A program made the position numbers and the translations under genes. Under the pieces are notes generated by a model. The model saw nothing but the letters and a program-made list of their open reading frames with translations. It did no database searches and was not told the origin of the DNA. From an uncultured Saprospiraceae bacterium (GTDB taxonomy: Bacteria > Bacteroidota > Bacteroidia > Chitinophagales > Saprospiraceae), in NCBI GenBank assembly GCA_937921775.1, contig CAKZUK010000001.1, positions 88,429 to 152,428 on the forward strand: DNA of 64,000 nt, written 5' to 3'. This document shows, piece by piece, positions 17,823 to 45,146 of this stretch (positions within the stretch are counted from its first letter, which is position 1; each line of letters begins with the position of its first letter).

Positions 17823-17954
17823 CTACCAAATATCGGCGTCGATAATGATATCACTCATAGTGCCTGTACCACCTTTCAATTTTTTCAAATCGGTAGTATC
17901 AACTTTTTTAATTTGCTTTAATGTGCTTAATTTAGAAATACTTTTTTTAGACAT
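17823..17954 (-). CDS. 43-aa GG-leader micropeptide (putative natural-product/RiPP-like or signalling peptide precursor); not in supplied ORF track
   Basis: ATG...TAG translates to MSKKSISKLSTLKQIKKVDTTDLKKLKGGTGTMSDIIIDADIW; Lys-rich leader, 'LKKLKGG' processing-like motif, acidic core. Confidence 0.75.
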   Translation of the reverse strand: MSKKSISKLSTLKQIKKVDTTDLKKLKGGTGTMSDIIIDADIW

Positions 17955-18055: not shown

Positions 18056-19297
18056 ATGGATAAACGAAGTAATACAAGTACTAAGCCAAAGTCTATTTCA
18101 AACACCCAAAAGGCATTTGCAGCTTGTAGCGATATGGCTATTCAGATGGAGAAATATGCGAAGCGCGGAGAAAGTGAGCTTGTTGTTGAAGATGTACTCG
18201 CTCATTTCAAAAAAGCTAAAAAATATTTGTTCAATAAACTAGCTGGAGAGTTTGCGACTTTTTTACAACACTACTACTACGTAGTTGGGCAAAACGAAAA
18301 GCTAGGCGCAAAATTTACCGAATTTGCTTTATATTATAACGAACTAGCTTATTATGAAAAAATAGTAAAGCTTAAGTTTTCTAGTATTTCCTTTGCTCTT
18401 AACCGCACTAAAAGCCCAGACCTTATTCTAGTAACTAGGCTAAAAGAGATTTGTGATGAGCTCAAAGGTTATCTAATTTATGACTCTGCCGAAATCTGGA
18501 TAAGAACTTACCTGTTACTCAATGCTTATGCTACTCACCAGTCTGATTTTAATCTAATCATTAAACAAAGTCATGAGGTCATTGAATTTTTAAATAAAAA
18601 AGGGATAGAGCGTACTTTTCCTTTTTATAAAGATTTTGCGGTTGCTTATATTCAAACAGGAGATTATGACGCAGCCGTTGTTGCAATCAATAAAGCGATT
18701 GATGGTATCAAAAAAGGAACATCTTCCTGGAGTGTTTTTGTTTATTATCGAGTTATTATCGAACTACATCGAAAGAATTATCAAAAAGCCTATGAGATCT
18801 ATCAAGAGGCAGAAAACAAACGCTACATCAAAAAAGATCTTAATAAAGTTATTTACGAAACTTGGTATTTTGTAAAAGGATACATTAAGTTTTTAATCCT
18901 TGCCGGAAAAGTGGAAGCTGAGTCACATCAATTTAAGATTGGTCATTTCCTAAATAGTATCATCGTCTTCAATAAAGATAAATCAGGTCATAAAATCAAT
19001 ACACTCATTCTGAAAATAATCCTTCGATTAGATTCTGAAAATGGTAGGGAGAATATCATTAAAGAGCGCTCTGCGATCAAGAAATATTCAGAAGAAAACT
19101 TTGAGCAAGGCTCTCGTGCCCGAATTGTGTTCAGACGATTGCTGCACATTGTACCGGGTGACTTTAATGCTGAAATTGTTCAGGAAAAGGTGGCAAAAAA
19201 TGTGGAACCACTTCCTCCATTAAAGGGATATAATCCGGATTTGGAGATGTTGCCTTATGAGGATTTGTGGGAGATGGTTTTGGAGGTGTTGGATTGA
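18056..19297 (+). CDS. Soluble TPR-like helical-repeat protein
   Basis: 413 aa, all-helical; TPR-like segments 'FAVAYIQTGDYDAAVVAINKAIDGI' and 'YYRVIIELHRKNYQKAYEIYQEAE'; no TM or signal peptide. Confidence 0.7.
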   Translation: MDKRSNTSTKPKSISNTQKAFAACSDMAIQMEKYAKRGESELVVEDVLAHFKKAKKYLFNKLAGEFATFLQHYYYVVGQNEKLGAKFTEFALYYNELAYYEKIVKLKFSSISFALNRTKSPDLILVTRLKEICDELKGYLIYDSAEIWIRTYLLLNAYATHQSDFNLIIKQSHEVIEFLNKKGIERTFPFYKDFAVAYIQTGDYDAAVVAINKAIDGIKKGTSSWSVFVYYRVIIELHRKNYQKAYEIYQEAENKRYIKKDLNKVIYETWYFVKGYIKFLILAGKVEAESHQFKIGHFLNSIIVFNKDKSGHKINTLILKIILRLDSENGRENIIKERSAIKKYSEENFEQGSRARIVFRRLLHIVPGDFNAEIVQEKVAKNVEPLPPLKGYNPDLEMLPYEDLWEMVLEVLD

Positions 19298-36201: not shown

Positions 36202-37002
36202 TTACGTCACATCTCTTTGTCGCTCCTTCCAATATCCTAGTGCAACAAATAGGACAAAAAAAGCAATACTTATATATTCAACCTTGTTGAAAAAGGTACC
36301 CGTATCTTTATTTAAAGTACTGTGAATGATATCTAGATCATTGACCAAAGCAGCTTGCGAATATGGGAAATGAAGGCCGTATTTTGATCCAGATATATAG
36401 ATAAAAAGTCCAATAATAAAGCCCATTATTCCAACCATTATAGGTATGAGGAAATTTTTGAAATGCAAACTCAAGCAATATTGAAGTCCTACTACTGAGA
36501 GTATTCCAATCATCAAGTGTGTAAATCGTGGGATTAATTCTCCCATGTTTGGAAAGTAATACTGAAACTCAAATTCAGGAAAAATCAATGACATGAAATA
36601 ACCTAATACAAGTGCGGAAAGAAAATAAACGATGATGCTTGTAAATATTAAAAGGAGTATAACAGCCAGTTTCGAAAAATAAATATAGGCACGCTTCAGG
36701 GGCATACTGTAAAGTCTTTTCCAGGTATCGCTTTGATGTTCTAGGTTGACGACAAAACTATTGGTCAAAACAATGATAGGAAGTAAAATGAAAACAGAAA
36801 AGATATCACTGGTTAATTTGTAAAAATAGCCCCATGGGTTTACGTTTAAAGTCGTATTGTGATAAGGCGATGTCAAAAAAGAAATCGTAATCATAATAGG
36901 TACAAGGATACCTCCAAAAAGAATAAGCCATCTTAGTGGTGTACTTTTAAGTTTGTACAATTCAGCATGGAAGCATCTGATAAATAGTAGAAGCATCGAC
37001 AT
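36202..37002 (-). CDS. ABC-2 type transporter permease (lantibiotic-immunity-like topology)
   Basis: 'CFHAELYKLKSTPLRWLILFGGILVPIMIT', 'HQSDTWKRLYSMPLKRAYIYFSKL'. Confidence 0.8.
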   Translation of the reverse strand: MSMLLLFIRCFHAELYKLKSTPLRWLILFGGILVPIMITISFLTSPYHNTTLNVNPWGYFYKLTSDIFSVFILLPIIVLTNSFVVNLEHQSDTWKRLYSMPLKRAYIYFSKLAVILLLIFTSIIVYFLSALVLGYFMSLIFPEFEFQYYFPNMGELIPRFTHLMIGILSVVGLQYCLSLHFKNFLIPIMVGIMGFIIGLFIYISGSKYGLHFPYSQAALVNDLDIIHSTLNKDTGTFFNKVEYISIAFFVLFVALGYWKERQRDVT

Positions 37003-37913
37003 TATTGATCGGAGTTTGTGATGTCAATAAATAGATTTTCCAGATTGTTTTTTTCCAGCCTTACTTCATAAATATTAATCTTATTACGTACTAATGTTTC
37101 AATGATAATTGGAATGTCGTTTTCATCTTGAACATCGACTTTAATAGTATCGGTATCATTGAGGTTTGCTATAAACTGTGTTTTCAATAAGTCGATTACT
37201 TTTTGAGGATGATCCACTTTTAGATTTACTTGGAGGTTTTTCTTTTTTAATAATTCTAATTCTTGTATCGATCCTTGGAATACCATCTTTCCATCTTTTA
37301 TGATACCAACGCTTGTTGCAATTAGCTCAATTTCATTTAACAAATGGCTGGAAAGAAAAATAGTTTTTCCTTCGTTTTGTAAATTTTTAATTATGTTTCT
37401 AATCTCAATTATTCCAGTAGGATCTAGACCGCTCGTTGGCTCATCTAGTATGAGAAGTTCGGGGTCGTTGAGCAATGCCATGGCTAGTCCGAGTCGTTGT
37501 TTCATACCGGTGGAGTATGCCTTTGTTTTTTTATCTTTTTGTGTCCTTAGATTTACGAGATGTAGTACTTCTGTTATTTTAGCATAAGGAATGTTAAGAT
37601 ATTTACAAACTAACTTCAAGTTTTGATAGCCCGTCAAGTGTGAGTATATCGCAGGAGATTCAATAAGGGATCCTACGTTTTTTAATATTTCGGGATTGCT
37701 TATTTTTATTGCTTGATTAAAAAGTTGAATGTTGCCTTTACTTGGTTTTATTAGTCCGAGGATACTTCGGATAGTGGTTGTTTTGCCAGCACCATTGGCT
37801 CCGAGGAAACCATATATTGCTCCACGCGGCACCTGCAAGCTTAGGTTGTTGAGGACCTGTTTGCCTTTTTGGTAGGAGTAAGAGAGCTCGTTGATGGAGA
37901 TGATGTTGGACAT
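37002..37913 (-). CDS. ABC transporter ATP-binding protein (BcrA/NatA-like)
   Basis: Walker A 'GANGAGKTTT', signature 'YSTGMKQRLGLA', Walker B 'LLILDEPTSGLDP'. Confidence 0.95.
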   Translation of the reverse strand: MSNIISINELSYSYQKGKQVLNNLSLQVPRGAIYGFLGANGAGKTTTIRSILGLIKPSKGNIQLFNQAIKISNPEILKNVGSLIESPAIYSHLTGYQNLKLVCKYLNIPYAKITEVLHLVNLRTQKDKKTKAYSTGMKQRLGLAMALLNDPELLILDEPTSGLDPTGIIEIRNIIKNLQNEGKTIFLSSHLLNEIELIATSVGIIKDGKMVFQGSIQELELLKKKNLQVNLKVDHPQKVIDLLKTQFIANLNDTDTIKVDVQDENDIPIIIETLVRNKINIYEVRLEKNNLENLFIDITNSDQ

Positions 37914-41436: not shown

Positions 41437-42546
41437 ATGAATAGCGATTACGTAAAAAAACGAATTGAAAAAATAAGAAGCTTAATCAGTGAAGCTCGCC
41501 ATGACGAGGCATTTGCAGATTTGGAAAATTTCATCGCTGAGATTGATGGAGAGAAAGTAGAAAATATTCGTGAGCGTGATTTACTAGACCAATTAATTTC
41601 TGTAAAATCACGATATAATTTTTTCAAGCAACAAGTTCTAAAGGGCTTGCAGGAAGGACAGACTGAACTGAATCAGATATCGGCTGCTTTACTGAGCTTG
41701 ACCAATGAGGTCAACAAAATTGGAGAAGAGAACCCAAAGGCCTTCAAGCCTGATGAGGAAGAACAAGAGTACTATGCAGAAATGGCAGCGACAGCTCCCT
41801 TAACTGCGACCCATAATATAAATGATTCACTTCAAGATGGAAGTCAAAATAGCGGCTGTCTGCTTGCTATCAATAATAAAAATACAAACGTCAACGTAGA
41901 AATTAAAGACTTCAACTGGTCAGCTTTCTTTTTTAAAGTTGCCTTTGGACTTGTCCTGGTTGCTGCAGCAATATTTTTCATGACTAGAGGTTGTGCGAAC
42001 AAATCTGTAGATCCAGTAAGCCCACCTGTAATTAGTCCAGAGCCTGCTCCAGATCCGGGTGGGGCAACAAAGGACAGCATAAATAGAGGAGGAGGAAACT
42101 CGACGGATGTGAAGAGTAACCAACAAGCAAGAGGTAAAAATTGCAAAGAACTTCAACTTTCTGCTGGGAAAATTTGTGAGCTAGCAGATTACATAAGTAA
42201 TGTTGATAATGCTCTTTCGAGAAAATTCGAATTGAGCGATGTTTCATTTAAAAAGAATAGTCTAGATTTGTCCGATCGTTCAAAAGCAAATCAGCAAATT
42301 AATGATCTGGTAAAACTTTTAAAAGCTTACCCTGGTCTTGACTTGACGATTTATGGATATACTGTTGATGGCGAAAATGATGTTATTAAAGGCGTAAATG
42401 ATAAAGAGGATGGATTGGATAATATTCGCGCAAAGAAAATATTCGGATTTTTAAACGATAGAGGTATTAGTAAAAAACGTATGGATTATATTGGTGATAC
42501 TGACAACGATCGTGGCGATAGTCGCATATGGATTAAAATGGAATAG
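41437..42546 (+). CDS. EAD11-like N-terminus + single TM + degenerate OmpA-like C-terminal domain
   Basis: N-terminal 'LLDQLISVKSRYNFFKQQVLKGLQEGQTELNQISAALLSLTNEV'; TM 'VAFGLVLVAAAIFFMT'; C-terminal 'LLKAYPGLDLTIYGYT...DNIRAKKIFGFLNDRGISKKRMDYIG'. Confidence 0.6.
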   Translation: MNSDYVKKRIEKIRSLISEARHDEAFADLENFIAEIDGEKVENIRERDLLDQLISVKSRYNFFKQQVLKGLQEGQTELNQISAALLSLTNEVNKIGEENPKAFKPDEEEQEYYAEMAATAPLTATHNINDSLQDGSQNSGCLLAINNKNTNVNVEIKDFNWSAFFFKVAFGLVLVAAAIFFMTRGCANKSVDPVSPPVISPEPAPDPGGATKDSINRGGGNSTDVKSNQQARGKNCKELQLSAGKICELADYISNVDNALSRKFELSDVSFKKNSLDLSDRSKANQQINDLVKLLKAYPGLDLTIYGYTVDGENDVIKGVNDKEDGLDNIRAKKIFGFLNDRGISKKRMDYIGDTDNDRGDSRIWIKME

Positions 42547-42817: not shown

Positions 42818-42845
42818 TTGACAAACAATCTAATTGATTTGTCAA
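42818..42845 (+). promoter_or_regulatory. Inverted repeat in the promoter region of micropeptide 2
   Basis: TTGACAAA-N12-TTTGTCAA perfect 8-bp arms, 38 bp upstream of the ATG. Confidence 0.5.
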
Positions 42846-42882
42846 TTGTTCTATAATTTATTTTTAATTAAATACTATAACC

Positions 42883-43014
42883 ATGAATTTAAAAGCATCA
42901 AAAAAAATTACTAAACTAAATTTGGACCAGAAGCAGATTATCAAACCTGACAACTGTTCAAACATTAAAGGCGGGGGCTATTGGTGTTGCGTCCGTAATA
43001 AATGGATTCACTAA
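42883..43014 (+). CDS. 43-aa GG-leader micropeptide with Cys-Cys/Trp-rich core (putative RiPP-like or signalling peptide precursor); not in supplied ORF track
   Basis: ATG...TAA translates to MNLKASKKITKLNLDQKQIIKPDNCSNIKGGGYWCCVRNKWIH; flanked by an upstream inverted repeat and a downstream terminator. Confidence 0.8.
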   Translation: MNLKASKKITKLNLDQKQIIKPDNCSNIKGGGYWCCVRNKWIH

Positions 43015-43022
43015 ATAACACC

Positions 43023-43073
43023 AGAAATGAGCTACTTGTTACAGCTGTAGCTAAGTAGCTCATTTCTTTTTTT
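43023..43073 (+). terminator. Strong hairpin terminator between micropeptide 2 and the histidine kinase
   Basis: AGAAATGAGCTACTT/AAGTAGCTCATTTCT perfect 15-bp stem followed by TTTTTT. Confidence 0.92.
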
Positions 43074-43085
43074 CTAAATCTATAT

Positions 43086-45146
43086 ATGAAATATTCAACA
43101 TCGGTCATTCTTGTACTCTTTTTCTCAATTTCATTATATGGATCGGGAACACAGGTGGATAGTATCACCGCACCTAAGCTGTGGTTAGAACAACAGAATG
43201 AACTAGGAGAAAGATTGTTGAAGAGCAGTCATGATTTTAAAGAAGCAGTTGATATCTACAAATCTGCTTACAATTTTGCCGTCTCAAATGAGCTGTCTTC
43301 TCACCTTATAGACTTAACAGTCAATTATGGAATCGCCTTGTATAAAAATGGAGAAATACAAGAAGCTTATTCCATCCTACACGATGTCTTACCAAAGATC
43401 ATAAACGATAATTTAAAGTTAAAGGCGGATGTCAACCAAATTCTTGGTATGACACTGGTATTTCAAAACAAATTTTCGGAAGGTTATAAACACCAAATGG
43501 ATGCTTTGAAATACTATACCGATATGAAGGATTCTTCTGGTGTAATGAGTGTGTTTTACGATCTGGGAAACAACTTTGCTACACAGGGACAAAGTGAATT
43601 GGCACTAGAAAATTACGAAAAAGGAATTGCGATTGCTAAATCCCTAGAGGATGTAAAGATGACGATGTTTGGTATCACTGCATTAGGAGGTGCTTGGGCG
43701 GCACTTGGTGATCTTGAAAAAGCTTTAAAATATAGTAACGAAAGTATTGACTTAGCTAAACTGCTAAAAGATGATGAGGAGTTGGCTTGGGCTTCCATTA
43801 ACCAAGGACACATATTGGTGCAACTAGCTAAGTATGAGGATGCTGAGGTGTTTTTACAACAGGCATATGACCTTAGTTTTGTTATTGGCAACAAGCTATT
43901 GACGGGGTACTCTATAGAGCAAATGGCAGAACTAAAATTTAGACAAAACCATTTAGAGGAAGCGATTCAGCGTCTTGATGAAAGTTATAAAATTTATCAG
44001 GAACTTGGTCATACGAATAGTGTAAAAGAGGTGACGAAAAAGTATGCAGAGATTTATTTTAAACAAAAAAATTATATCAAGTACAAGGAATATACAGATC
44101 AGTATATAGCATTGAAAGACTCCTTGTACTCGAAAGAAATGATGGAGTCAATGGCAAGCCTTAAACAAGATTTCGAATACCATAAAATGGAACGCGAAAA
44201 TCAAATTGTTTTGTTGACCAAAGATCAGGAATTGGCTCAAGCCAAAGGCTATATTATTTGTGCGATTGTACTAGGTACATCGCTTGTTTTTATTTTACTA
44301 TTGATTTTATTATTTAGTAGAAACAAAGCAGCCAATGAGAAAAATGAAATTCTAAGAGCTAAAAACGCTGAGATATTACGACAAAATGAATCGCTGGTTA
44401 GTTCTAATGAAGATTTAGAAAAATTTGCTTACATCATTTCCCACGACCTTAAAGAACCGCTACGTAACATCAACGGATTTACAAAACTACTAAGTCGGAA
44501 ATTAAAAAAATATTCATTTGATGACAGCATTAGCGAGTATCTGCAATTTATTGTCAGTGGAACCGATCAAATGGGGGACTTGTTGACTGGCTTATTAGAT
44601 TACTCTAAAGTTGGTGTCAACAAAAGTGAGAAACAACTCATTAACCTCGATTCTATAGCACGAAAAGTAATTAACGGATTTAGAATCCAAATAGCAGAAA
44701 AGAATTGCGAAATTGAATTGCATGAACTGCCCAAGGTCTCTTGCAAAAATACACAGCTTAGTCAGGTATTTCAAAACCTACTTGCCAATGCCATCAAATT
44801 TGGACAGGATCAAGGAAATAAAATTATAATTGGAGCAAAAGACCTAGGGGATGAATATCAAATCTTTGTAAAAGACGAGGGGATTGGTATTGAAAGAAAA
44901 TATCAAGAAGATATTTTTGTGGTTTTCAAACGACTGCATGACCGTAAAGCATTTACTGGCTCAGGAATTGGATTGGCTACTTGCAAGAAAATTGTAGAAG
45001 ACCACGGAGGTCGTATATGGGTGAAGTCAGAAGAAGGAAAGGGATCTTGTTTTTATTTTACCTTACCAAAAATCCCATTAGATGATCCCCAAAATCCTAC
45101 CATTGAAAAGATAAATACCTCTCAACGTGATTTAGTAATTGCTTAA
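43086..45146 (+). CDS. Periplasmic-TPR sensor histidine kinase
   Basis: Signal peptide; TPR repeats ('ALENYEKGIAIAKSLED', 'ALKYSNESIDLAKLLKDDEELAWASINQGHILVQLAKYEDAEVFLQQAY'); TM 'ICAIVLGTSLVFILLLILLF'; H-box 'FAYIISHDLKEPLRNI'; N/G boxes 'LLANAIKFG', 'GIGLATCKKIVEDHGGRIWV'. Confidence 0.93.
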   Translation: MKYSTSVILVLFFSISLYGSGTQVDSITAPKLWLEQQNELGERLLKSSHDFKEAVDIYKSAYNFAVSNELSSHLIDLTVNYGIALYKNGEIQEAYSILHDVLPKIINDNLKLKADVNQILGMTLVFQNKFSEGYKHQMDALKYYTDMKDSSGVMSVFYDLGNNFATQGQSELALENYEKGIAIAKSLEDVKMTMFGITALGGAWAALGDLEKALKYSNESIDLAKLLKDDEELAWASINQGHILVQLAKYEDAEVFLQQAYDLSFVIGNKLLTGYSIEQMAELKFRQNHLEEAIQRLDESYKIYQELGHTNSVKEVTKKYAEIYFKQKNYIKYKEYTDQYIALKDSLYSKEMMESMASLKQDFEYHKMERENQIVLLTKDQELAQAKGYIICAIVLGTSLVFILLLILLFSRNKAANEKNEILRAKNAEILRQNESLVSSNEDLEKFAYIISHDLKEPLRNINGFTKLLSRKLKKYSFDDSISEYLQFIVSGTDQMGDLLTGLLDYSKVGVNKSEKQLINLDSIARKVINGFRIQIAEKNCEIELHELPKVSCKNTQLSQVFQNLLANAIKFGQDQGNKIIIGAKDLGDEYQIFVKDEGIGIERKYQEDIFVVFKRLHDRKAFTGSGIGLATCKKIVEDHGGRIWVKSEEGKGSCFYFTLPKIPLDDPQNPTIEKINTSQRDLVIA

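Follow-up and report, generated by a model that had tools for sequence, protein, structure and literature searches.

The window analysed here (64,000 nucleotides of a contig from an uncultured Saprospiraceae bacterium) carries, in close succession on the plus strand, an ORF for a short peptide with a double-glycine (GG) leader, a hairpin and a gene for a sensor histidine kinase (Table 1). An initial annotation made from the sequence alone had proposed these elements, preceded by an inverted repeat, as a peptide-sensing module. The GG-leader peptide gene which it predicted was found to be present and conserved.

Table 1. Positions in the window of the peptide–kinase locus and of other features mentioned in the text
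Feature	Position	Strand	Description	Basis
GG-leader peptide gene	42883..43014	+	43 aa; MNLKASKKITKLNLDQKQIIKPDNCSNIKGGGYWCCVRNKWIH	ORF, purifying selection, family matches
Predicted leader	within 42883..43014	+	residues 1-31; predicted cleavage after G30-G31	leader-like motif
Predicted mature peptide	42976..43011	+	GYWCCVRNKWIH, 12 aa	alignment of 7 orthologs
Intrinsic-terminator-like hairpin	43023..43067	+	15-bp arms, T-rich 3' side	repeat search, alignment, covariation
Sensor histidine kinase gene	43086..45146	+	686 aa	Pfam, hydropathy, AlphaFold2 model, PDB searches
Kinase parts	within 43086..45146	+	signal-like segment 1-25, 8-TPR sensor ~28-345, TM ~383-417, HisKA (H453), HATPase_c	
Inverted repeat	42818..42845		TTGACAAA-N12-TTTGTCAA; judged outside the module	repeat search
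EAD11 protein gene	41437-42546		EAD11 effector-associated domain, TM segment, OmpA-like domain	
Two-gene ABC transporter	36202-37913	-	ATPase and ABC2_membrane_4 permease	
Second GG-leader peptide gene	17826-17954	-	...KKLKGGTGTMSDIIIDADIW	
413-aa ORF	18056-19297	+	weak TPR match	

The peptide gene, the hairpin and the upstream repeat

The peptide ORF was compared with that of G001 (locus L045), the sole genome of the same genus that was found, which served as the reference for all pS and pN values. The peptide has a pS of 0.72 and a pN of 0.042, and this high pS with almost no amino acid replacement indicates that the ORF is a real gene under purifying selection. The pN of the kinase against the same genome is 0.127, and those of the upstream and downstream genes are 0.19 and 0.23, respectively. 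The leader, whose cleavage site is placed from knowledge of GG motifs, has hydrophobic residues at positions -4 and -12, and no transmembrane segment was found in the peptide. Within the predicted mature peptide Y, CC, RN and W are invariant across the clade (alignment of seven orthologs). The 12-residue peptide is probably exported, and its vicinal cysteines could undergo oxidation outside the cytoplasm.

The GG-leader RiPP precursors of Bacteroidota (TIGR04149, NF038153/NF038158) have a leader style and a GG cleavage motif in common with the window peptide, which however falls below the family cut-offs. Its match to the lanthipeptide-leader model NF038158 was sub-threshold (10.8 bits, cut-off 27), TIGR04149 was not among its family-model matches, and no curated family cut-off was reached. 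A second low-scoring match to the peptide in its own genome (L002) was rejected as an unrelated Cys-rich ORF. Upstream of the pair lies the gene for an EAD11-domain protein, which G001 retains as well.

The terminator of the initial annotation was recovered as a perfect 15-bp inverted repeat followed by Ts, which separates the peptide gene from the kinase gene. Its core (GAGCTA...TAGCTC) is invariant in all seven loci of the window type, lying in each between the peptide stop and the kinase start, and alignment of these loci shows covariation of the inner stem, with double changes in 7 of 16 pairs. Most transcripts of the peptide gene probably stop at the hairpin, and signal would then be in excess over receptor; with a terminator at this place, co-transcription of the two genes is not required. 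The hairpin motif was also considered as a genome-wide regulon site and rejected, the counts of GAGCTAY...RTAGCTC being mostly near those of a reversed-pattern control. Six of the seven matches in the window genome represent one near-identical element, the remaining one being this locus, and no recurring function was seen among the genes adjoining five other sites of the motif.

The repeat TTGACAAA-N12-TTTGTCAA, put forward as the first element of the module, does exist upstream of the peptide gene. It was nevertheless dropped as an operator or module part, because an equally good repeat occurred in 42% of dinucleotide shuffles of that intergenic region and because the repeat is absent from G001.

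The kinase and its TPR sensor

The kinase has the Pfam domains TPR, HisKA and HATPase_c, and its hydropathy profile shows one strong TM segment besides a signal-like segment at the N-terminus. The AlphaFold2 model (alignment of 21 sequences; pLDDT of the TPRs mostly 85–97) has eight TPRs (residues 28–326), a long membrane-crossing helix and a kinase core. On the basis of the signal-like segment, the TM segment and the layout of the model, the TPR sensor is most likely located outside the inner membrane, in the periplasm; Pfam, hydropathy and model thus agree with the kinase architecture first annotated, a periplasmic TPR sensor with one TM segment.

By fold (Foldseek) and by sequence the sensor resembles the TPR domains of LGN/Pins, several of which have been solved with partner peptides. 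In the model it has a peptide-binding type of fold, and binding of the peptide itself is predicted. The sensor/kinase-core identity ratio has a mean of 0.98 in the window clade vs 0.59–0.70 in other clades, and residues which are invariant in the window clade but seldom found elsewhere account for 23% of the sensor vs 10% of the kinase core. More of these clade-specific residues fall in the A helices (40/140) than in the B helices (24/140; p = 0.016). The A helices line the groove of the TPR superhelix.

A similar layout has been reported for FimS of Porphyromonas gingivalis, in which eight predicted TPRs form the N-terminal sensor in the periplasm and the kinase lies in the cytoplasm; the signal of FimS is given as unknown, and a polypeptide is suggested by the authors (PMC11053733). 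The window kinase shares with FimS the periplasmic multi-TPR sensor, the TM segment, HisKA and HATPase_c. The NCBIfam model of FimS matches the window kinase over residues 208–662, but at 159.1 bits (cut-off 600), which makes the kinase a relative of FimS and not FimS itself. FimS also has a cognate regulator, FimR, whereas the window kinase is without an adjacent regulator. The available text of the same report (PMC11053733) mentions no peptide gene accompanying FimS, whereas the window kinase has one.

No response regulator was recognised by inspection among the window ORFs near the pair, and none of the 20 LytTR genes of the genome lies on this contig. In two relatives (L167 and L174) a LytTR response regulator adjoins the pair, so that the description of the kinase as an orphan holds for the window pair and not for those two loci.

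Distribution of peptide–kinase pairs in Saprospiraceae

A peptide profile search of 378 family genomes identified peptides of the window type (KGG…Y-[WYF]-CC-x-RN-x-W) in seven, each just upstream of a kinase of one clade. Five further profile matches were weak (E 4e-4 to 9e-3), three of them being interrupted by stops. The genes flanking the pair vary between most of the genera which carry it; the exceptions are an upstream ABC gene common to two genomes of one genus and G001, which shares the neighbours of the window. As the pair remains constant while its flanks change, the two genes are co-inherited and stay together as a unit. Adjacency of peptide and kinase across genomes had been set beforehand as a test that could refute the module, and the pair was found to be kept across genera.

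In the wider kinase family 30 of 48 TPR kinases have a GG-leader ORF on their own strand at most 1 kb upstream. In the controls this held for 0 of 23 distant TPR kinases (p = 7.6e-8), 0 of 60 non-TPR kinases (p = 1.7e-14) and 3 of 399 other genes (p = 8e-31; Fisher tests). One rule was used throughout, and a family kinase was counted if its upstream sequence extended to 600 b or more; the profile by which the kinases were ranked was built from ten peptide-bearing kinases, and minus these ten seeds the count is 20 of 38. At other positions around family kinases, GG-leader ORFs numbered none antisense upstream, two downstream on the same strand and one downstream antisense. Eighteen of the 48 TPR kinases have no GG peptide under the counting rule, and the TPR-kinase fold therefore does not require one. 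When the kinases lacking a peptide were re-read for overlooked ORFs, one (L153) proved to have a CPPP peptide with GKG instead of GG. No GG-leader peptide was recognised beside kinase relatives in other families of the class (L190, L192–L196, L198, and L199).

The wider-family kinases are ~25–35% identical and the cores of their GG-leader peptides differ considerably (DPPPW, tandem NPPDWD repeats, CPPP, and GCPPDYD). Peptide types cluster on the kinase tree, with 21 changes of label vs 36.6 for shuffled labels; the window type forms one clade (SH-aLRT 100), and the window and NPPDWD types are each confined to one side of a single well-supported branch. The tree was a quick one with many open forks and shows clustering only, and in this sense peptide type seems to track kinase clade. 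In L026, L143, and L147, tandem GNPPDWD repeats follow the GG motif and resemble multi-copy peptide precursors. An array in another genome (L029 and L038; G034:C97:15002-24454) interleaves two TPR kinases with at least five GG-leader peptides, several of which end in CPPPDPED or similar.

The peptide-free sister TPR kinases (L037, L025, L165, L166, L170, L172, and L173) have upstream, in most cases checked, a gene for a secreted-looking protein, which is mostly divergent and in L165 encodes a T9SS C-terminal signal. Such a neighbour is possibly a different sensed partner, and if the family senses various partners the window kinase too might sense something else, its adjacency to the peptide gene being incidental or due to shared mobility. 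This reading is considered very improbable, as it is at odds with the pairing statistics, the clade-specific peptide types and the upkeep of the pair in differing neighbourhoods.

The window contains a second GG-leader peptide gene, which is oriented divergently to an ORF of 413 aa whose product matches TPR weakly and has no obvious signal peptide (Table 1). G001 shows the same arrangement (L220). Of 199 family genomes, 59 encode homologs of the 413-aa protein, and in L222, L223, L225, L234, and L237 these homologs lie near GG peptides with acidic cores rich in I/V. The 413-aa protein and its peptide may represent a family which combines a cytoplasmic TPR protein with a GG peptide.

Candidate signalling mechanism and comparison with known systems

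One full C39-peptidase ABC transporter (G000:C6:83075; C39, ABC_membrane and ABC_tran domains) is encoded in the genome. It lies outside the cassette and is followed by the gene for an HlyD-like adaptor, cut by the contig end. C39 domains are described as cleaving leaders at double-glycine motifs (PMC6363468). C39 was present in 33 of 34 family genomes with a strong match to this kinase vs 121 of 214 others, a co-occurrence which larger genomes may explain in part; in G001 the C39 match is a fragment only.

On balance, the pair is rather likely to be a peptide-signalling cassette in which a C39-exported peptide would control the kinase by binding to its periplasmic TPR superhelix. The precursor would be cut after Gly-Gly, and the mature peptide of ~12 aa (GYWCCVRNKWIH) would be exported by the C39 transporter and its HlyD-type adaptor. 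In or via the periplasm it would then bind the concave face of the eight-TPR superhelix and alter autophosphorylation of the kinase at His453, and the phosphoryl group would pass to a response regulator encoded elsewhere, probably of the LytTR type, and so to its targets.

GG leaders and C39 transporters are also used by bacteriocins, and the peptide may instead be an antimicrobial (bacteriocin or RiPP) which, as in nisin-type systems, the kinase senses mainly to control its production or the protection of the producer. The leaders of some relatives weakly match the bacteriocin_sig, TIGR04149 and lanthipeptide-leader models, and the two-gene ABC transporter, of a type known from self-protection against peptide antibiotics, lies ~5 kb from the pair and is kept in G001. 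The transporter genes, however, run opposite to the pair and were not observed adjoining other window-type pairs, and the core of the window-type peptide is nearly invariant across genera rather than diversifying. No maturase gene (rSAM, LanB/LanM, or ATP-grasp) was recognised adjoining the pair by inspection of the window-type loci, whose neighbours were partly checked with Pfam, nor was any modification or immunity gene recognised there in the other window-type loci. An antimicrobial role is therefore regarded as unlikely, though not negligibly so.

The strict 1:1 pairing and strong constraint on the peptide would suit equally well a dedicated partner that acts within the same cell, modulating its own kinase in the manner of MgrB or a signal antagonist, and not as a cell-to-cell signal. 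A conserved GG processing motif at the end of the leader, the lack of a transmembrane segment and the presence of a C39 exporter in the genomes speak against such an internal modulator, as do the NPPDWD tandem-repeat precursors of sister clades with their resemblance to released multi-copy peptides, and it is held to be distinctly improbable.

The proposed signalling cassette may be compared with the ComC-ComD-ComE/Blp systems, in which a short GG-leader precursor likewise adjoins a histidine kinase and is served by a C39 ABC exporter; their regulators are of the LytTR type, which is adjacent in two relatives here. The sensor of those kinases (HPK10), however, is a multi-span membrane domain as opposed to a periplasmic TPR superhelix with one TM segment, and their hosts are Gram-positive, whereas here the host is Gram-negative and both exporter and regulator are encoded outside the cassette. 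The RRNPP regulators (Rap, NprR, PlcR, PrgX, and ComR), with which a parallel had been drawn at the outset, share the logic of a peptide plus a TPR receptor, and the parallel stands as an analogy only. Their receptors meet a re-imported peptide in the cytoplasm, whereas here the TPR domain would lie outside the inner membrane, fused to a kinase; the kinase is closer to the FimS-type TPR kinases of Bacteroidota, and the peptide to GG-leader pheromones, than either is to RRNPP systems.

RiPP clusters of Bacteroidales with separate HK/RR or TPR genes have been reported (PMC10352776). Both halves of the window pair are known, as GG pheromones with kinases and as FimS-type TPR kinases, and their combination appears to be undescribed: no paper joining a GG peptide with a periplasmic TPR kinase was found in the literature searched, mostly outside subscription journals, in keeping with the earlier statement that no characterised system of this architecture is known.

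The recurrent pairing suggests a peptide-signalling system in Bacteroidota, a group in which peptide signalling is poorly known. It is somewhat more probable than an even chance that the pairs form an undescribed Gram-negative peptide-pheromone two-component family, widespread in Saprospiraceae, in which GG-peptide 'dialects' (YxCC-RN-W, DPPPW, NPPDWD repeats, and CPPP) are read by periplasmic TPR kinases and which provides the class of ligand so far missing for some, at least, of the orphan TPR kinases of Bacteroidota. The signal of FimS, the best-studied relative of these kinases, is still unknown, and with a candidate ligand that is genetically linked and matched to the kinase clade, the question of what TPR kinases sense becomes directly testable. 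If the proposal is correct, the recognition of peptides by TPRs, as in the cytoplasmic RRNPP receptors, would also be built into a transmembrane kinase, and a Gram-negative phylum for which the literature searched describes nothing alike would possess a peptide communication system.
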